DNA from: Microbacterium thalassium
GTDB lineage: Bacteria; Actinomycetota; Actinomycetes; Actinomycetales; Microbacteriaceae
Direction: 5' to 3'
Assembly: GCF_014208045.1 (NCBI RefSeq)
Contig: NZ_JACHML010000001.1
Coordinates: 2,294,001 to 2,358,000 of the forward strand
DNA: 64,000 nucleotides
Of the stretch, positions 42,748-51,687 are shown one piece after another (the stretch's first letter is position 1; the number at the start of each line of letters is the position of its first letter). The translations under genes and the position numbers were made by a program. The notes below the pieces were generated by a model that was not told the DNA's origin, made no database searches, and saw only the letters and a list, made by a program, of their open reading frames with translations.

Positions 42748-42907
42748 GGCGACCCCCTCTGCGCTCTCTCGGTTGGGAACCGGATTCAACGCCCTGTTTC
42801 CAGGTTCGTCCCTACGGGCATGTGTCTAGCGCGGCTGGGTATGCGGATTGCATGTGCCCGGTTCGGAGGGGGTTGACCGGCCATGTGCCGAGGTCGAACA
42901 TGGCGCC

Positions 42908-45900
42908 ATGGCTATCGACGTCCTGGGGGCGACGCGCGTCGAGGGTGCGGCGCTGCATCCCAGGGAGTTGGCGGTGATTGCGGCGCTCGTCGTACGAAGC
43001 GGGCGGCCCCTCTCGACGCAGGATCTCGCGGAGATCGTCTGGCCCGAGTCGGAGCGGCCCGCAACATGGAACAAGCAGATCCATGCGTCGATCGCGAGGG
43101 TGCGCAGAGCGGTCGGGCCGCGACGCATTGTGACGACTGCTTCGGGCTACCATCTCGATATCGATCCGGACGAGGTCGACGCGCGCCTCTTCGAGTCGCT
43201 CGTGTCGCGCGCCCGCAAGCAGCACACGATGGGCGAGCCCGACCGGGCGGTCGCGACGTACCGGCGGGCTCTCGATCTCTGGCGCGGCCGTCCCTACGAG
43301 GAGCTGGTGGCGTGGCCAGAGGCGATGGCGGCAGCGATCGATCTCGAGAATCTCCAGATCGAGGCAAGCGAGGAGATCCTCCACGCGCGACTCGACGCCG
43401 GCGATTCCGTCGGCGTCATCTCAGAGGCGGAGAGCCTTCTGCGGGATGAACCGCTGCGTGAGTCACGCTGGGCTCTTCTCGCGCTCGCCTCCTACCGGGC
43501 GGGAAGGCAGGCCGACGCGCTGTCCGTCCTCCGATCGGCACGCGAGCGGCTCGCGGAGGAGCTCGGCATCGACCCGGGCCCGGCGATCGGCGACCTAGAG
43601 TCCGCGATCCTCCGGCATGACAAGAGACTCGAGACGGAACCCGGGGCACTCCCCGCACGCGCCGATTGCCCGTACCGTGGACTCGCGGCATACCAGCCGG
43701 CTGACGCCGATGACTTCTTCGGACGGGAGGCCGAGATCGCCGCAGCGGTCCGCCGACTCGACGCAGCCGGATTCCTGGTGGTGACCGGCGCCTCCGGGTC
43801 GGGCAAGTCATCCCTTGCGCGTGCGGGCGTCGTGCCGTCATTGCGGCGCCGCGGTCGCCGGGTCCTGGTCGTCGCACCGGGATCCGCGCTCGCGGAAGCG
43901 TTGCGGGACGTGAACGACAGCGGCAGGCAAGTGGACACCGTCGTCGTGGATCAGTTCGAAGAGGTCCTCGAGGCCGGGGACGGTTCGGGCGCCCAAGTCT
44001 CGGCGCTGCTCGCCCGCTTCGCAGGGTCCGGCGGACAGGTCGTCCTCACCGTTCGGTCTGACTTCCTGGATCGCTGCGCTGCCGACCGCGCACTGGGTCC
44101 GCTCATGACGGAGAGCGTCATGGTGGTGTCCCCGATGACGGATCCCGACCTCAGGCGCGTGATCGAGGAACCGGCGCTCCGTGCCGGCCTCCGGCTCGAG
44201 CCGGGGCTCGTCGAACTCATGATGCGAGACGCCGCCGGAGCGCCGGGCGTCCTCCCGCATCTTTCGCACGCGCTCGCAGAGACGTGGGTGCACCGCGAGG
44301 GACCCGTCCTCACCGTCGCCGGCTACAAGGCGACCGGCGGCATCGACGGTGCGATCGCACAGACCGCCGAACGGTTCTACGCCACCCTGGACCCCACCGA
44401 CCGCGAACTCTGCCGATCGACTCTCCTGCGCCTGGTCACCGTCTCCCCGGACGGACTCGCCATCCGTCGACGTCTCAGCGCACACCCGCTGCGCGACGAT
44501 CCCGCTCTCGGACAGCTCTTCGACCAGCTCATCCGCGCACGTCTCGTGACCATCGAGGGCGACTCCGCAGTACTCGTCCACGAAGCGGTCACGAGCGCGT
44601 GGGACCGATTCCGCACGTGGCTCGAAGACAGCGCCGAAGACCTCGGAATCCTCGCCCACATCGAGGCCGGCGCCGCGGCATGGGACGCGGGGGGACGCGC
44701 CGACGACGACCTCGCTCGCGGCGTGCGTCTCCACGCCATGCTCGATCTCCGCGAGCGCTCCGATCCCGCGCTCGCCGAGACCGAGGCCGCGTTCATCGAC
44801 GCATCCGCCGCTCACGAGGCGGACGAGAGCCGGATGCTCGCCGCTGCTGCCGCCGCGGAACGGCATCGGAACCGGCGACTCCGGCTGCTCGTCGTCGCCG
44901 TCGCCGTCATCGCGGTGATCGCGCTCGTCACCGGGGCCGTCGCCATTCGCAGCGCCATGGCCGAAGCCGAAGCGGCCGAGAGCGCCAGGATCGGCGAAGT
45001 GATCCGCACCTCGTCGGCACTGCGCGATACGGACTCGGTCGTCGCCGCACTGCTGGCCGCCGAGTCGTACCGCCGCTGGCCGGACGATGCCCGTACGCTC
45101 GGCGCGATGCTCGCAGTCCTCATGTCGCCCGCCGGCGAGGTCAGCAACGCCTACATCCCGCGAACCCAGCGGCTCATGGGTGCGGCGATGATCCCCGGGA
45201 CCGAGACCGCCCTGGTCATACGAGACGACATCCACGCCGAGATCCGGAACGTCGCGACCGGTGACCTCGTGCGCCGGCTCGACGTCGAACTGCGCCAGTC
45301 GTCGCGGGCACGTCAGCCGCTCGTGCACGTGAGCGCCGACGGGCGCATCGCGACCGTGAGCGTCTCAGTCGTCAGACCACAGGCGGACGACCCACCCGCC
45401 CCGGAGGACATCGGCAGCTGGCTTTCCATCATCGACCTGCGCAGCGGCGAACTCCTCGGCCAGCCCAGGCTGCTGGACCGGGAGATCGAATCCTTCGCAC
45501 TCAGTCCCGACGGGCTCCACGCCGCCTACGTGCACCAGAGCGGCACTCTTGTCCTCGTCGACACCCTCGGTGGATCGGTCCGCGAGCTCACCGCTCTCGC
45601 GGGCACGGAACCCGTGTCCTGGGACCGCGGCGCCGTGGGCTTCACGGCCGACTCACGCACCATGGTCGTCGGCACCGGGACCGGCGCACTGGTCCATGTC
45701 GATGTGGAGTCCGGCGAAGCGAGCCGGCGGGTCTCCATCCCGCAGCAGACCGCGAACTCGCGCGTATTGCCGCTCGCAGACGGATCGGTCATCGCGAGCG
45801 GCGACGCGGGCACAGTCTCGATCTCCTCGACGGGAGAGACGCAGTGGTACAAGGAGGCGGCGACCCCGCGCGAGTGCGGATACCTGGCCCTCTCCCCGTC

Positions 45901-47140
45901 GACGGGCACGATGTTCTGCGGCGACCCCGACGGCCACGTCGTCGAGCGACGCATCGATACCGGAGAACTCACCGGTCGGGCACTGACATACCAGGCGGGC
46001 GCATCAGGAGAGATGTGGGTCGACACGGATGGATCTCGAGTGGTGATGATGACCGCAGGCGGATACAGCATCGGCACATGGCACCTGGCCGGCGCCGTCG
46101 GGTCGTCACCGCTCATCGTGTCCGGCCTCGGGCTTGCGCGGGCGCCCAGCCCCACTGGCCGCTACCTGCTCGCCGGCGAGAGACCCGTCGACCTCACCGG
46201 GGACGGGCCGTCGACCGTGGACTCCCAGACCTTCACCGTCTGGGACATGGAGGCCGGGAGAGCCACGTACGAGGTCTTCGGCCTCGATGCGAACTGGGCA
46301 GGTGCCGGTGTCCTGCGGACGGTCTCGCCTGAGCGCGAGGTGCACTACGTCGACCTGGAGAGTCAGACGGTCACGCCGGCCCCTGAACACGACCGCGACC
46401 TCTACGCCGGAACAGAATGGTGGGCACAATTCGCGACGAACGCCACCGGCGAGGTGCTGTTCGAGATGCGCGCGGGCCTGCCGATCGTACGTCAACTGGA
46501 TCCGACCACGGGTGAACCCATCGGACCCGACCTCGACACAGGCGGTCCCGCCTCCCAAGCGGTCTCGGTGGCATCCACAGCCGATGGCGCCCAGGTGGTG
46601 ACCGGCAACTTCCGAGACGAAGGCCCACAGCTCACGGTCTTCGACGCCTCTACCGGCGAGGTGCTCGCCCAGCGCACCGGGCCCAACAGCGTCATCGCGA
46701 CAATCACCTCCGACCAGGAGATCATCGCCGGCGGCTACGACCGGATCGTCAGACTCGACATGGATCTCGACCAGGTCGGTGCGTTGCCGACTCCGCCCTC
46801 GGGGAGGATCTCGACTCTCCAGAGCAGCCACGACGGGCGAACGCTCCTCGTCACCACATGGTCGAACGACATCGCGCTATACGACCTCGAGTCCTCAACT
46901 CTGCTCGGCATCCCGGTGAGCGCACCTGCGACCGCCGGTCTCGCCGCCGCACTGGCGGCTGATGGGACGGCGCTGTTCGTCTCTACAGAGCGCGGCATCG
47001 TGCGCTGGAGCCTCGCCGGCGAAGACCTGCTGGCACAGGTGTGCCGTGTCGCCGGACGGAACCTCAGCGCCGAGGAATGGCACACCTACCTCGCCGGCAT
47101 CGGCGAACGGCGGGAGACCTGCGGCTTCGCCACGGAATGA
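42908..47140 (+). CDS. BTAD (SARP-type) regulator with nSTAND NTPase, membrane span and propeller-like tail
   Basis: 1410 residues. 1-95: winged helix of the SARP/OmpR type (TQDLAEIVWPESERPATWNKQ). 100-250: BTAD helical repeat (DARLFESLVSRARKQHTMG). About 270-560: nSTAND NTPase, with Walker A GASGSGKSS (Lys300) and Walker B VVVDQFEE (Asp348). About 560-655: winged-helix/helical part. About 658-683: a strong membrane span preceded by RHRNRRLR. 690-1410: repeated beta strands of WD40/propeller type. The basic residues before the span put the DNA-binding half in the cytoplasm and the propeller outside. It diverges from an operon of two membrane or lipoprotein genes, possible targets. ATG at 42908; an in-frame start at 42848 is less likely. 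Confidence 0.85.
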   Translation: MAIDVLGATRVEGAALHPRELAVIAALVVRSGRPLSTQDLAEIVWPESERPATWNKQIHASIARVRRAVGPRRIVTTASGYHLDIDPDEVDARLFESLVSRARKQHTMGEPDRAVATYRRALDLWRGRPYEELVAWPEAMAAAIDLENLQIEASEEILHARLDAGDSVGVISEAESLLRDEPLRESRWALLALASYRAGRQADALSVLRSARERLAEELGIDPGPAIGDLESAILRHDKRLETEPGALPARADCPYRGLAAYQPADADDFFGREAEIAAAVRRLDAAGFLVVTGASGSGKSSLARAGVVPSLRRRGRRVLVVAPGSALAEALRDVNDSGRQVDTVVVDQFEEVLEAGDGSGAQVSALLARFAGSGGQVVLTVRSDFLDRCAADRALGPLMTESVMVVSPMTDPDLRRVIEEPALRAGLRLEPGLVELMMRDAAGAPGVLPHLSHALAETWVHREGPVLTVAGYKATGGIDGAIAQTAERFYATLDPTDRELCRSTLLRLVTVSPDGLAIRRRLSAHPLRDDPALGQLFDQLIRARLVTIEGDSAVLVHEAVTSAWDRFRTWLEDSAEDLGILAHIEAGAAAWDAGGRADDDLARGVRLHAMLDLRERSDPALAETEAAFIDASAAHEADESRMLAAAAAAERHRNRRLRLLVVAVAVIAVIALVTGAVAIRSAMAEAEAAESARIGEVIRTSSALRDTDSVVAALLAAESYRRWPDDARTLGAMLAVLMSPAGEVSNAYIPRTQRLMGAAMIPGTETALVIRDDIHAEIRNVATGDLVRRLDVELRQSSRARQPLVHVSADGRIATVSVSVVRPQADDPPAPEDIGSWLSIIDLRSGELLGQPRLLDREIESFALSPDGLHAAYVHQSGTLVLVDTLGGSVRELTALAGTEPVSWDRGAVGFTADSRTMVVGTGTGALVHVDVESGEASRRVSIPQQTANSRVLPLADGSVIASGDAGTVSISSTGETQWYKEAATPRECGYLALSPSTGTMFCGDPDGHVVERRIDTGELTGRALTYQAGASGEMWVDTDGSRVVMMTAGGYSIGTWHLAGAVGSSPLIVSGLGLARAPSPTGRYLLAGERPVDLTGDGPSTVDSQTFTVWDMEAGRATYEVFGLDANWAGAGVLRTVSPEREVHYVDLESQTVTPAPEHDRDLYAGTEWWAQFATNATGEVLFEMRAGLPIVRQLDPTTGEPIGPDLDTGGPASQAVSVASTADGAQVVTGNFRDEGPQLTVFDASTGEVLAQRTGPNSVIATITSDQEIIAGGYDRIVRLDMDLDQVGALPTPPSGRISTLQSSHDGRTLLVTTWSNDIALYDLESSTLLGIPVSAPATAGLAAALAADGTALFVSTERGIVRWSLAGEDLLAQVCRVAGRNLSAEEWHTYLAGIGERRETCGFATE

Positions 47141-47199
47141 CCCGATGGTTCGACCGGATCGAGGCGTGGGGTGCCGATTCCGCGCCAGGGCGCCTTGCA

Positions 47200-48141
47200 C
47201 TAGCCGAGCAGCGCCACGCCGAACCCGGCGACGACAGTTCGGACTTCCGCGAGGTAGCGCTCCGCCTGCTCGGTGAGGGGGATCGAGGCGTGACCGATCC
47301 AGCCGATCTCGATGCGCTCGTCGACCTCGAGCGGGATGGCGACGATCTCGGGGTCGAGCTCTTCGCTGATGATGCCCGTCGAGATCGTGTAGCCGCCGAG
47401 CCCGATCATGAGGTTGAAGATCGTCGCGCGGTCGGACACTCGGATCTCCTGCTTGCTCGACTGGGTCGAGAGGATCTCCTCGGCGAAGTAGAACGAGTTG
47501 TTCGCACCCTGGTCGAAGGTGAGCCGCGGCACATCGGCGAGATCGGCGAGAGTCGCGCGATCCCGAGAGGCGAGCGGGTTGCTCCGGGCGATGAAGATGT
47601 GCGGCTCGGCGAGGAACAGCGGGTGGAATGCCAGCCCCGAGTCTCGGAGCAGCTTGTCGATGACCTTCCGGTTGAAGTCGTTCCGGTAGAGGATGCCGAT
47701 CTCGCTGCGGAGCGTCCGGACATCCTCGATGATGTCCCACGTGCGGGTCTCCCGCAGCGCGAACTCGTACTCGGCCGCATCCGCAGCCTTGACCATCCGA
47801 ACGAACGCATCCACCGCGAACGAGTAGTGCTGCGCCGAGACTCCGAGCAGGCGCCGGGACGGCGGCGTGCCGAGGTAGCGCTGCTCGAGGAGCTCCACCT
47901 GCTCGACCACCTGTCTCGCGTAGCCGAGGAACTCCGCGCCGTCGGCGGTGAGGGTGACTCCACGGGCCGAGCGGACCAGCAGCGCGCGGCCCACCCGCGC
48001 CTCGAGGTCCTTCATCGCCGCGGACATGGTCGGCTGTGCGACGTAGAGCACGTCGGCGGCCGCGGAGATCGACCCCTCCGCGGCGACTTCGATGAAGTAG
48101 CGCAGCTGCTGCAGCGTCAGCCCGCTCGACCCCTGAGACAT
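47200..48141 (-). CDS. LysR-family transcriptional regulator
   Basis: 313 residues: N-terminal winged helix (LTLQQLRYFIEVAAEGSISAAADVLYVAQPTMSAAMKDLE, about 8-60) and a two-lobed periplasmic-binding-like effector domain (90-305). It diverges from the mesX-mesD-flavin reductase operon, the usual position of a LysR regulator relative to its target, so it probably responds to a methionine, homocysteine or flavin-related signal (inference). The ATG at 48141 is chosen because a TAGGAT box lies six bases upstream; an in-frame TTG at 48147 falls inside that spacer. Confidence 0.9.
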   Translation of the reverse strand: MSQGSSGLTLQQLRYFIEVAAEGSISAAADVLYVAQPTMSAAMKDLEARVGRALLVRSARGVTLTADGAEFLGYARQVVEQVELLEQRYLGTPPSRRLLGVSAQHYSFAVDAFVRMVKAADAAEYEFALRETRTWDIIEDVRTLRSEIGILYRNDFNRKVIDKLLRDSGLAFHPLFLAEPHIFIARSNPLASRDRATLADLADVPRLTFDQGANNSFYFAEEILSTQSSKQEIRVSDRATIFNLMIGLGGYTISTGIISEELDPEIVAIPLEVDERIEIGWIGHASIPLTEQAERYLAEVRTVVAGFGVALLG

Positions 48142-48147
48142 AGCCAA

Positions 48148-48166
48148 ATCCTATATGAACGCATAG
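48148..48166 (-). promoter_or_regulatory. LysR promoter overlapped by a T-N11-A type dyad
   Basis: TAGGAT (minus strand, 48148-48153) is the leaderless -10 box of the LysR gene. It is overlapped by the inverted repeat CTAT-N8-ATAG (48151-48166), a plausible LysR binding site that would give autorepression while activating mesX on the other strand. Confidence 0.5.
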
Positions 48167-48262
48167 AAGAGCCGAGTTACCCGATATCAGCCGACCGCTT
48201 GCACCATGGATGCAGCCCCTTTCAACGGCCGATCCCGGCCTAGACCCACCGGATTGGCCACT

Positions 48263-49252
48263 ATGGACGCGTTCACGTTCAGCATCACCACCACCCTCTT
48301 CGACGAGGACTACTCGCCGTCGGAGAGCTCCCGCATCACGACGAACTTCGCCAACCTCGCAAGGGGCGAGCACCGTCGGCAGAACCTGCGCAACGCCCTG
48401 ACGATGATCAACCGTCGCTTCAACGATCTCGCGCATTGGGACAACCCGACCCGGGACCGCTACGCCGTCGAACTCGACATCGTCTCCGTGCAGCTGGAGT
48501 TCACGGCCGAGGGCACGGATCAGCAGTTCCCGCTGCTCGAAGTCCTCGACACGCAGATCGTCGACCGGCGGACCGGCATCCGCCACCGCGGGATCGTGGG
48601 GAACAACTTCTCGTCCTATGTACGCGACTTCGACTTCAGCGTGCTGCTGCCTGCGGCAGGCGGCGGCGCCGGCAAGCCCGTCGTCCCCCAGGACTTCGGC
48701 GTTCTGCACGGCAAGCTGTTCCAGCACTTCCTCGACTCCGCGGCATACCGGGAGCACTTCCCGAAGCAGCCCGTGATCTGCATCAGCGTGTCGACGAGCA
48801 AGACGTACCACCGGACCGGGAACCACCACCCCGTCCTCGGCGTCGAGTACCAGCAGGAGGAGTTCTCGCTGACCGACGAGTACTTCGCGAAGATGGGCCT
48901 GCAGGTCCGCTACTTCATGCCCAGCGGCGCCGTGGCGCCGCTCGCGTTCTACTTCCGCGGCGACCTGCTCAACGACTACTCGAACCTGCAGCTCATCAGC
49001 ACGGTCAGCACCATGGAGACGTTCCAGAAGATCTACCGCCCCGAGATCTACAACGCGAACTCCGCCGCCGCAGACGTGTACCGGCCGAGCCTGGAGGCGC
49101 AGGACTACTCGCGCACCCAGGTCGACTACGACCGCGTCGAGCGCAGTCAGCTCGCGGTCCAGCAGGGCAAGTACACCCAGGAGCACTTCATCGAGCCGCA
49201 CAAGGACGTGCTCGAGCAGTGGGCCGCCGGCTACCCCGCCCGCGTCGCATGA
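48263..49252 (+). CDS. mesX: MesX, DUF1852 protein (partner of methionine synthase MesD)
   Basis: 329-residue DUF1852 protein. Conserved blocks include FTFSI, the SRITTNFANLARGE block, GIVGNNFSSYVRDFDFSVLLP, HPVLGVEYQQ and TMETFQKIYRPEIYNANS. DUF1852 proteins, named MesX in work on folate-independent methionine synthases, are required together with MesD for methionine formation in aerobic bacteria (literature knowledge); their chemistry was unresolved as far as I know. The ATG at 48263 is chosen because the family begins right at the FTFSI block; an in-frame ATG at 48206 adds 19 unconserved residues. mesD overlaps by ATGA. Confidence 0.9.
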   Translation: MDAFTFSITTTLFDEDYSPSESSRITTNFANLARGEHRRQNLRNALTMINRRFNDLAHWDNPTRDRYAVELDIVSVQLEFTAEGTDQQFPLLEVLDTQIVDRRTGIRHRGIVGNNFSSYVRDFDFSVLLPAAGGGAGKPVVPQDFGVLHGKLFQHFLDSAAYREHFPKQPVICISVSTSKTYHRTGNHHPVLGVEYQQEEFSLTDEYFAKMGLQVRYFMPSGAVAPLAFYFRGDLLNDYSNLQLISTVSTMETFQKIYRPEIYNANSAAADVYRPSLEAQDYSRTQVDYDRVERSQLAVQQGKYTQEHFIEPHKDVLEQWAAGYPARVA

Positions 49253-50310
49253 CCGCCGCGGAATCGTCCACCGCGCCCGCGCTCCTGCCGACCTCGATCG
49301 TCGGCAGCCTGCCGAAGCCTTCGTGGCTCGCGCAGCCGGAAGTCCTCTGGTCCCCCTGGAAGCTCGAGGACGCTGCGCTGGTCGAGGGCAAGCAGGATGC
49401 GCTGCGTGTCGCCGTGCAGGAGCAGACCCGACGCGGCATCGACATCGTGAGCGACGGGGAGCAGACCCGCCAGCACTTCGTCACGACGTTCATCGAGCAC
49501 CTCAGCGGGGTCGATTTCGAGCAGCGCGAGACCGTGCGGATCCGAGATCGCTACGACGCGAGCGTGCCGACCGTCGTCGGATCGGTCAGTCGCGAGCGGC
49601 CCGTGTTCGTCGACGACGCGACGTTCCTGCGCGCGTCCACCGATCGCCCGATCAAGTGGGCGCTCCCCGGTCCGATGACGATGGTCGACACGCTCTACGA
49701 CGCCCACTACAAGAGCCGCGAGAAGCTGGCGTGGGAGTTCGCGACGATCCTCAACCAGGAGGCGAAGGAACTCGAGGCGGCGGGCGTGGACATCATCCAG
49801 TTCGACGAGCCCTCGTTCAACGTCTTCTTCGACGAGGTCCAAGACTGGGGGGTCGCCGCGCTGGAACGAGCGGCAGAAGGATTGAAGGCGGAGACCGCCG
49901 TGCACATCTGCTACGGCTACGGGATCAAGGCGAACACCGACTGGAAGGCGACCCTCGGGTCGCAGTGGCGGCAGTACGAGGAGTCGTTCCCCCTGCTCCA
50001 GCAGTCCACCATCGACATCGTCTCGCTGGAGTGCCACCACTCCCATGTCCCGATGGACCTCATCGAGCTCGTCCGCGGCAAGAAGGTGATGCTCGGGGCC
50101 ATCGACGTGGCGAACCAGGCGATCGAGACCCCCGAAGAGGTCGCCGACACCCTGCGGAAGGCGCTCACCTTCGTCGATGCGGAAAATCTCATCCCCAGCA
50201 CGAATTGCGGAATGGCTCCGTTCCCTCGCGACGTTGCACTGAAGAAGCTGAGCGCACTCAGCGCGGGAACCGACATCATTCGTGAGGAGCTGGCCGTTGA
50301 GCAGACCTGA
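49249..50310 (+). CDS. mesD: MesD, core (folate-domain-lacking) methionine synthase
   Basis: 353-residue protein equal to the catalytic C-terminal half of MetE, lacking the N-terminal folate-binding barrel. The zinc ligands match MetE: His219 and Cys221 (VHICYG), Glu261 (SLECHHSH) and Cys320 (TNCGM). SIVGSLPKP at the start and PGPMTMVDTLYD are family blocks. It should methylate homocysteine to methionine with a methyl donor other than methyl-tetrahydrofolate polyglutamate. The MesD assignment rests on the adjacent DUF1852 gene. A flavin reductase gene overlaps its end. Confidence 0.9.
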   Translation: MTAAESSTAPALLPTSIVGSLPKPSWLAQPEVLWSPWKLEDAALVEGKQDALRVAVQEQTRRGIDIVSDGEQTRQHFVTTFIEHLSGVDFEQRETVRIRDRYDASVPTVVGSVSRERPVFVDDATFLRASTDRPIKWALPGPMTMVDTLYDAHYKSREKLAWEFATILNQEAKELEAAGVDIIQFDEPSFNVFFDEVQDWGVAALERAAEGLKAETAVHICYGYGIKANTDWKATLGSQWRQYEESFPLLQQSTIDIVSLECHHSHVPMDLIELVRGKKVMLGAIDVANQAIETPEEVADTLRKALTFVDAENLIPSTNCGMAPFPRDVALKKLSALSAGTDIIREELAVEQT

Positions 50311-50878
50311 CTCGCAGGCATCCGCCGCCACCCCGCTCGAGGCACCGGAGCACGTCTTCTCGTCCTCGCTGTCGCCCGACGAGTTCAAGGCCCTGTTCCG
50401 CGGGCACCCCGGGGGTGTCGCTGTCATCACGGCGGATGCCGGTGATGGGCCCGTCGCGCTGACGGCGACGTCGGTCTCATCGGTGAGCGCCGAGCCGCCG
50501 CTGCTGATTTTCTCGATCTCGGCGCTGTCGTCGGCATCCGACGTGCTCTCGCGCGCCGATACCGTGGTCGTGCACCTGCTCGACGCGCACGACCTCGACG
50601 TCGCGAAGCTCGGCGCGACCCGCGGCATCGACCGCTTCACCCAGACGCACCGCTGGTCGCGGTTGGCCACCGGTGAGCCGGTCTACCGCGATGTCCGCGC
50701 CTGGGTGCGCTGCGCCGTCATCAATCGCATGGATGCCGGGACCTCCACGGTCATCGCCGCCCACGCACTGCAATCCCACATCGAGCGCGACGTCCACCCC
50801 GGCGGACCCGGCGACGCCCTGGTCTACCACAACCGCACGTGGCACCGTCTGGGCGAGCACTCCCGCATCGAGGATTGA
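50297..50878 (+). CDS. flavin reductase family protein (FMN-binding split barrel)
   Basis: 193 residues of the NADH:FMN oxidoreductase-like split-barrel family: FKALFRGHPGGVAVITADAG, VALTATSVSSVSAEPPLLIFSIS (flavin phosphate region), VVHLLDAHDLDVAKLGA and a late DALVYHNRTWHRLG. Such proteins supply reduced FMN to oxygen-dependent partner enzymes. It overlaps the mesD stop, so it belongs to the mesXD operon and may feed reduced flavin to MesX or MesD (inference). TTG at 50297 follows a well-spaced GAGGAG; GTG at 50282 is an alternative start. Confidence 0.86.
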   Translation: MSRPDSQASAATPLEAPEHVFSSSLSPDEFKALFRGHPGGVAVITADAGDGPVALTATSVSSVSAEPPLLIFSISALSSASDVLSRADTVVVHLLDAHDLDVAKLGATRGIDRFTQTHRWSRLATGEPVYRDVRAWVRCAVINRMDAGTSTVIAAHALQSHIERDVHPGGPGDALVYHNRTWHRLGEHSRIED

Positions 50879-50912
50879 CGGGGCGCGGTGCTTCCTCCTG
50901 CCCGCTCACGGA

Positions 50913-51298
50913 TCAGGTCTGCACCGCGCGGCGACGTGTCCCGCGCGTCGCCGCCGCACTGATCGCCACTGACCATCCGCCCAGGGAAGCTCCCGCTGCC
51001 GTCCCGGCGATCCGAAAGATCGGGCTGAGCGCATGCGGCCAGGTGGCGTGCCCCGGGGCGAGAACGAGGACGAGGACGACCGCGGCACCGATTGCGACAC
51101 CCGTTCGAGCCAGACGGAGGCGGGCATCCACACAACAGCGCCGGCCAGGGCGAACGCGCCCGCCAACCCGACCAGCACGCCGACCGCAGACCCGACGGAC
51201 ATGTCCCACTGACTGATCGGACCGCTGACCGCCAGGGTCCCGACCAGAGGAGCCGCACCCCAGACCGGGATGCCCCAGGCGAACTCGCGCCTGCGCAT
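50913..51298 (-). pseudogene. frameshifted small membrane protein gene
   Basis: Starts at an ATG (MRRREFAWGIPVWG) and runs in one frame through two hydrophobic segments, to about ASVWLER. The membrane-protein character then continues in the next frame (TGVAIGAAVVLVLVLAPGHATWPHALSPIF...) to a stop at 50913. The switch lies near 51105-51125. A single one-base change would give an intact protein of about 128 residues with four membrane spans. Either a recent pseudogene or an assembly error. No family recognised. It fills most of the 600-base gap between the flavin reductase and dodecin genes. Confidence 0.55.
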
Positions 51299-51480
51299 GA
51301 CGCGAGTGTGGCATGAGCGAAGCGCGAGGAACGTGAATCTCCGGTGAACGTCAACCCGGCCAGTGCCCCTCCTCCCAAGACGGCGGCGCGCTATGCCCAG
51401 CGCCGCAGGTGCACCCCTTTCCCGCGTGCGCGTCGGCGAGGAGGATGGAGTCGTCATCATCCAGCGACAAAGGGGTTGAG

Positions 51481-51687
51481 ATGAGCGTCTACCGAGTGAT
51501 CGATGTCGTCGGCACGAGTGCAACGTCCTGGGAGGAGGCGGCGCGGGAGGCGATCACCACCGCCGGTGGATCGCTGCACGACCTGCGCGTCGCCGAGGTG
51601 GCGAAGCAGGACATCGCCATCGCCGACGACGGGACCCTGCTGTTCCGGTCCCGGATCCAGCTCTCGTTCAAGTACGCGCCCGAGTAG
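51481..51687 (+). CDS. dodecin family flavin-binding protein
   Basis: 68 residues with the dodecin beta-alpha-beta-beta fold: SVYRVIDVVGTSATSWEEAAREAITTA, then LHDLRVAEVAKQDIAI and FRSRIQLSFKYAPE. Dodecins form hollow dodecamers that store flavins, FMN or FAD in actinobacteria, and protect the cell from free flavin. It lies 600 bases from the flavin reductase gene on the same strand, possibly a flavin-handling neighbourhood. AAAGGGG precedes the ATG. Confidence 0.93.
   Translation: MSVYRVIDVVGTSATSWEEAAREAITTAGGSLHDLRVAEVAKQDIAIADDGTLLFRSRIQLSFKYAPE

Follow-up and report, generated by a model that had tools for sequence, protein, structure and literature searches.

A 64,000-nucleotide stretch of the Microbacterium thalassium genome (contig NZ_JACHML010000001.1, positions 2,294,001 to 2,358,000; hereafter the window, numbered from its first letter) contains a well-formed operon that belongs to the known MesX-MesD system. 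Its first gene, mesX (DUF1852/PF08908; 48263..49252, plus strand), encodes a protein of 329 residues that matches PF08908, labelled "putative oxygenase" in Pfam and NCBIfam, with 576 bits (E 1.8e-173) over profile positions 3-323 of 323. It is followed on the same strand by mesD (49249..50310), encoding a core methionine synthase of 353 residues without a folate domain, and by a gene for a PF01613 flavin reductase (50297..50878; 97 bits). A LysR-family regulator gene (47200..48141, minus strand; PF00126/PF03466, with 72 bits for the helix-turn-helix domain) is divergent from mesX. An initial annotation of this DNA had named the same genes and described the overlap of mesX with mesD and the divergent lysR; all four genes are present, and Pfam and NCBIfam models agree on their identities with the scores given here and below.

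MesD scores 126 bits against PF01717 and 662 bits against the NCBIfam methionine synthase model PRK09121 (cut-off 392). Its closest solved sequence is PDB 3rpd ("Methionine synthase (B12-independent)"), which matches MesD residues 6-349 with 601 bits. As the initial annotation had proposed, the four zinc ligands of MetE are all retained (His219, Cys221, Glu261 and Cys320), and the folate-binding half is missing: the two full-length MetE chains among the matches listed align significantly from residue 435 on only, in their C-terminal half. MesD corresponds to the catalytic half of cobalamin-independent MetE with its zinc site kept, but it lacks the N-terminal folate domain and, according to published work, needs MesX and oxygen.

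MesD and MesX were named by Price et al. 2021 (PMC7857596). In that work, mesD and mesX of Sphingomonas koreensis rescued Escherichia coli metE or metF deletions, aerobically only, the pair being sufficient in E. coli with oxygen and without MetF. The authors also remarked that a putative flavin reductase often lies near mesXD and, from this neighbourhood argument, predicted an oxygen-dependent and probably flavin-using MesX (PMC7857596). Inferring redox chemistry on MesX from the flavin reductase is therefore already published and is not new here. Strains tolerant of nitrous oxide appear to use MesD (PMC13059711), and a survey of the MesX, DUF1852 and MesD literature, which covered a minority of subscription journals and no preprints, found no solved methyl donor after 2021. 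The window shares with the systems of Acinetobacter baylyi (ACIAD3523/ACIAD3524) and S. koreensis both protein families, encoded by adjacent genes in an aerobic host, as well as the MesD zinc ligands, independence of MetF and cobalamin, and a putative flavin reductase of the kind often found nearby (PMC7857596). It differs from them in that its host seemingly has MesD as the only methionine synthase, canonical MetF not having been found, and in its divergent LysR gene, its conserved candidate operator and the overlap of its reductase gene with mesD. What this locus adds is the apparent replacement of MetE, MetH and MetF, a variety of dispensable reductases, the candidate operator and an unusual model of MesX.

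The LysR regulator, the mesX leader and translational coupling

We compared the locus with 80 named genome loci, which are the best 80 of at least 586 and biased to close relatives (one, L048, ends inside mesD), and with a family-level set of loci (L133-L166) from 33 genomes of an even draw across the family plus one genome, G343, of a separate phylum draw. A LysR match of more than 300 bits lies beside mesX in 65 of the 80 named loci and in 25 of the 34 family-level loci, and at this place the five relatives that were compared have a LysR 80-89% identical to that of the window. The gene is divergent from mesX nearly everywhere; it lies on the mesX strand in L065, L148, L150 and L156. Of 65 lysR-mesX intergenic regions collected, 60 were used for the comparison of leaders, and 59 of these, the window included, contain an exact CTAT-N8-ATAG, which is likely the operator of the LysR. 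In the window this motif forms the dyad at 48151-48166 within a longer candidate operator, CATAG-N7-CTAT-N8-ATAG (48139..48166), whose further CATAG overlaps the lysR start. The dedicated regulator of the initial annotation is thus well supported in Actinobacteria by the neighbourhood counts together with the conserved candidate operator, and we infer that it responds to methionine or B12 status.

Between the candidate operator and the mesX start codon lies a short inverted repeat, GGCCG-N4-CGGCC (48227..48240, plus strand). A leader stem of at least 5 base pairs occurs in 49 of the 60 leaders, compared with 21% of shuffles, and the GGCCG/CGGCC pair itself is found in 31. A search for Rfam RNAs and riboswitches in 46500-51500 returned a single match, to mir-598, whose 25 bits fall short of the gathering score (69); we dismissed it as chance.

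Gene starts were examined in the same comparison. The most likely start of mesX is ATG 48263, which is favoured by the relatives. An upstream ATG 45-70 bases before mesX is present in 53 of the 60 leaders, mostly out of frame; it is in frame and open in 17, among them the window (ATG 48206), where a longer, non-conserved mesX would be possible. For lysR, ATG 48141 is preferred over TTG 48147. The stop of mesX and the start of mesD overlap as ATGA (49249-49252). The flavin reductase gene is taken to start at TTG 50297 (alternative GTG 50282), which is preceded 8 bases upstream by a Shine-Dalgarno-like GAGGAG inside mesD, and GAGGAG with a TTG, ATG or GTG recurs at the equivalent place in four of the nine relatives printed (L002, L013, L016 and L031). 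The initial annotation had placed this gene in the same translation-coupled unit as mesX and mesD. In the window its first 14 bases do lie within mesD, but L003, L010 and L042 show no such overlap; its translational coupling is thus a local trait rather than a general one.

MetE, MetH and MetF in genomes with MesX

The M. thalassium genome (one contig, 3.70 Mb) encodes a single MesX, whose closest organism-named relative, at 90% identity, is that of "Microbacter sp. GSS18". Searches of this genome found neither a MetH match nor a full MetE (the only TIGR01371 match, at 99 bits, is mesD itself), and a weak 33-bit methylenetetrahydrofolate reductase (MTHFR)-like protein was found there with no canonical MetF.

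The same pattern extends to the family, from which 199 genomes were drawn evenly: 34 carry MesX (22 of the 85 genera drawn) and 165 do not. Genes were called from six-frame searches with our own thresholds (MetE, at least 400 bits; MetH, at least 700; canonical MetF, at least 88; MTHFR-like, below 65), and the p values given for this draw ignore the relatedness of the genomes. A full MetE was found in 1/34 genomes with MesX versus 78/165 without, a full MetH in 1/34 versus 34/165, either of the two in 1/34 versus 100/165 (Fisher p 6e-11) and canonical MetF in 1/34 versus 96/165 (p 3e-10). MetE, MetH and canonical MetF are all missing in 33 of the 34 genomes with MesX; the sole exception, G585, has all three and a flavin reductase linked to mesXD as well. 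MesXD thus seems to stand in for the methyl-folate branch in this family. By the same thresholds, 65 of the 199 genomes lack MesX and a full MetE or MetH; these would be methionine auxotrophs or use another synthase.

Flavin reductases beside mesXD

The window reductase resembles RutF, HsaB, FerA and HpaC, yet it falls below the cut-off of all eight NCBIfam models that it matches. A gene of its family, PF01613, adjoins mesXD in 26 of the 80 named loci; 23 of these genes are intact and directly downstream, one lies beyond lysR (L014) and two are broken. Within the genus of the window, a linked reductase is present in its own genome (G000), in G316 and in G343. Among the named loci, reductases lie beside mesXD in 25 of 66 from actinobacteria, two of the 25 being broken, and FMN (flavin mononucleotide) reductases in all 14 from proteobacteria, where 13 are of the MsuE type and one is PF01613. 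The 13 MsuE-type genes, all beta- or gammaproteobacterial, lie on the mesX strand, 56-543 bases upstream of mesX. PF03358 was confirmed in 5/5 MsuE-type genes scanned, four of these 13 and a Comamonas plasmid copy, and the one gene tested against TIGR03566 scored 255 bits (cut-off 212); the remaining MsuE-type genes were called by a profile derived from 11 such genes. Plasmid loci were represented by 13 records, 12 of them proteobacterial, chosen from 60 listed of 209; three carry PF01613 beside mesXD, one carries an MsuE-type gene and nine carry neither.

These reductases are far from uniform. Identity of the window copy is 50% to a paralogue elsewhere in its own genome, and it drops to 29% for the copy at the Acinetobacter locus L075 and to 28% (53 residues aligned) for the Paracoccus one; the L075 reductase is in turn 66% identical to that of A. 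lwoffii. MesX identity to the window is 62-67% across those lineages, and 67% for Acinetobacter. Altogether the linked reductases form three PF01613 groups and the unrelated MsuE type (PF03358). The gene overlaps mesD in the window and in Paracoccus L128, and lies 42-57 bases before mesX in L129, L059, L060, L063, L064, L067 and L072. Separate recruitment of reductases would be the simplest reading of these sequences. Dissimilar reductases beside mesXD in several lineages point to a need for reduced flavin, and argue for it more strongly than one conserved neighbour could.

At least one PF01613 gene is present in all 34 family genomes with MesX. Tracing the window's reductase subfamily across genomes regardless of adjacency gave only a weak association with MesX, and this phylogenetic profile was set aside: copies at least about 50% identical occur in 17/34 genomes with MesX versus 44/165 without (p 0.013), and any reductase match at E<=1e-15, among the matches listed, in 31/34 versus 121/165 (p 0.027).

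Other genes were noted around mesXD. In the window, a gene for dodecin, a flavin-storage protein (PF07311; 51481-51687), follows that of the flavin reductase; the loci searched have none near mesXD, and we regard its position as coincidence. Luciferase-like flavin monooxygenases are encoded just upstream of mesX in G513 (L161:6033-8186) and, by annotation, about 1.5 kb beyond mesD on an Agrobacterium plasmid (L125:7549-8934). On plasmids of Pseudoalteromonas and Vibrio (L123, L131), a TauE/SafE-type sulfite exporter gene is divergent beside mesX, and plasmids of Acinetobacter lwoffii and Robbsia (L122, L130) have an annotated epoxyqueuosine reductase, QueH, close to mesX. On the other side of the window operon, a regulator-like protein of 1430 residues (BTAD-nSTAND1, with a propeller-like C-terminal part; 42848-47140) has its stop 60 bases before the lysR 3' end.

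MesX and the origin of the methyl group

What does MesX do? His149, His189, Glu195, Asp122 and Asp124 are invariant in 64 MesX sequences. The structure model of MesX has a pLDDT (predicted local distance difference test) of 90, and a truncated core of 238 residues was modelled worse, at 71. Acetyltransferases lead the structure matches, weakly, with 40 of the 50 rows listed for the whole model and, with the caution due to its lower score, 23 of the first 24 rows listed for the core; rows for AtaT and Kre33, which we take to be acetyltransferases, are included in this count. In its succession of strands and helices, the model resembles the GNAT acyltransferase fold, whose order we assume to be beta1-alpha1-alpha2-beta2-4-alpha3-beta5-alpha4-beta6-7. 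No acetyltransferase family is among the six families matched by the 64 MesX sequences at E<=10. Against the PDB, the single MesX sequence matched nothing at E<=10, and the three weak matches of a MesX profile (best E 0.052) were discarded as chance; a viral structure library gave nothing at E<=0.001.

We favour, with moderate confidence, an operon of mesX and mesD under LysR control that supplies methionine without methyl-folate or cobalamin, is probably the only methionine synthase of its host, and has an oxygen-requiring MesX to which the linked reductase most likely feeds reduced flavin. MesD, a zinc methyltransferase without the folate half of MetE, would transfer a methyl group to homocysteine. 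MesX would generate or activate the methyl donor of MesD in a reaction that requires oxygen, and the linked PF01613 enzyme would most likely supply MesX with reduced flavin (FMNH2, made from NAD(P)H). In relatives, the flavin may come from another reductase beside mesXD or from elsewhere in the genome. Flavin use by MesX is something that we infer, as are any identity and source ascribed to the methyl group. The arrangement resembles the two-component FMNH2-dependent monooxygenases SsuED, MsuED, HpaBC and RutAF, in which a PF01613 or MsuE-type reductase likewise stands beside an oxygenase, here a putative one; it differs in that MesX matches none of their oxygenase families by sequence, nor among the structure matches listed.

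Several observations weigh against this reading. Apart from the window's own, 33 genomes of the family draw have MesX, and only two of them (G316 and G585) have the reductase adjacent to mesXD. At the remaining 31 loci, profiles of the window subfamily and of the MsuE type find no linked reductase, and PF01613 and PF03358 are unmatched among 128 neighbouring open reading frames picked by size, strand and distance and scanned in sets of 117 and 11 (for the 117, among the 25 families listed of 37 matched). Two Glutamicibacter loci (L044 and L046; G. protophormiae and G. soli) have a reductase that is broken across frames or truncated, beside mesX, mesD and lysR genes that align over all or nearly all of their length. 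No linked reductase is present at eight of the 12 proteobacterial plasmid loci, the other four having one, and the PF01613 copy of the Thioclava plasmid (L120) spans positions 2-68 of 153 only. In Acinetobacter baumannii, B12 strongly represses the DUF1852 gene (log2 -8.3) and also lowers ABUW_3196, a flavin reductase gene only two locus numbers off (log2 -2.5; PMC12892962); the joint response favours the reading, and the far smaller change of the reductase counts against it. A comparison of the MesX model with flavin monooxygenases, suggested by the initial annotation, gave no flavin enzyme among the PDB structure matches listed (the best 50 of 573 and a second list of at most 50), which excludes nothing and is not proof of absence. 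Two further MetE-like proteins of about 370 residues in the M. thalassium genome, one of them above the PRK06520 cut-off, could themselves be methionine synthases. The complementation of E. coli with mesD and mesX alone (PMC7857596) we judge neutral on flavin, because E. coli has its own flavin reductases.

The family draw and the broken copies thus reject a single conserved flavin reductase partner. The initial annotation had counted on such a gene staying beside mesXD in relatives; within the family this is largely not the case, and the dissimilar reductases of other lineages counter the loss. Its conclusion that the co-encoded reductase marks MesX as oxygen- and flavin-dependent is therefore supported in part, by recurrence in several lineages, and weakened by poor conservation. 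Because the linked gene is often missing or decayed, the flavin need can evidently be met elsewhere.

Alternatively, MesX may depend on oxygen without flavin, for example as a metal-dependent oxygenase using the five invariant His, Glu and Asp residues, and the reductase may be an often co-regulated accessory of aerobic sulfur or one-carbon metabolism. We consider this possible but rather doubtful: it would accommodate the invariant residues, the structure matches devoid of flavin enzymes and a linked reductase that most family genomes examined lack and two Glutamicibacter have lost, but it leaves aside the several unrelated or deeply diverged reductases that different lineages have next to mesXD, in some cases overlapping mesD or closely preceding mesX, and the PF01613 gene in every family genome with MesX, which could act in trans. 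A protective role, in which the reductase would not feed MesX but keep MesD, homocysteine or a product aldehyde or peroxide in the right redox state, fits a gene that is dispensable in many lineages yet recurrent. It strikes us as highly unlikely, since PF01613 and MsuE-type enzymes are established FMNH2 suppliers of monooxygenases and nothing found here points to protection.

The methyl group could also derive from a folate one-carbon unit, through a divergent MTHFR-like protein that often accompanies mesXD. Such a protein is encoded near the MsuE-mesXD cluster in 11 of the 13 loci; in L019 it lies beside lysR, split over two open reading frames, together with PurU. Weak PF02219 matches occur in 16/34 family genomes with MesX versus 15/165 without (p 9e-7), a class defined by score that may mix families. 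The M. thalassium MTHFR-like protein, 43% identical to that of Stenotrophomonas, is encoded away from mesXD at G000:C1 ~1,038,000-1,042,600 (L082, L089) with PurU, a PF01613 reductase and two luciferase-like monooxygenases, one of which matches the NtaA/DmoA model while the other is a similar open reading frame. By analogy with chloromethane metabolism, this MTHFR-like and PurU cluster looks like one-carbon disposal, a role that the PurU-linked MTHFR would fit better than methyl supply. Moreover, 18 of the 34 genomes with MesX have no weak PF02219 match, and the MTHFR-like protein is not required for MesXD, since E. coli lacking metF is rescued by mesD and mesX (PMC7857596). We accordingly give the folate route very little credence.

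A bolder extension of the reading that we favour, and in our view an improbable one, is that MesX founds a structural class of its own among enzymes dependent on oxygen and FMNH2, with a GNAT-like core in place of any known flavin monooxygenase fold. It would split a one-carbon unit off a central metabolite, which in view of this fold may be a CoA- (coenzyme A) or pantetheine-linked acyl group, and pass it to MesD. Such an enzyme could draw on any host reductase, and with it the entire methyl-folate branch would be replaced in actinobacteria like the Microbacteriaceae.

The varied FMN reductases put the case for reduced flavin in the MesX-MesD system on a comparative footing, beyond a hint from gene neighbourhood, and the decayed and missing copies predict that reductase supply in trans suffices. 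The natural hosts in this family are expected to depend on MesXD alone for methionine; since they have no methyl-folate background, labelling and deletion tests in them would be clean.

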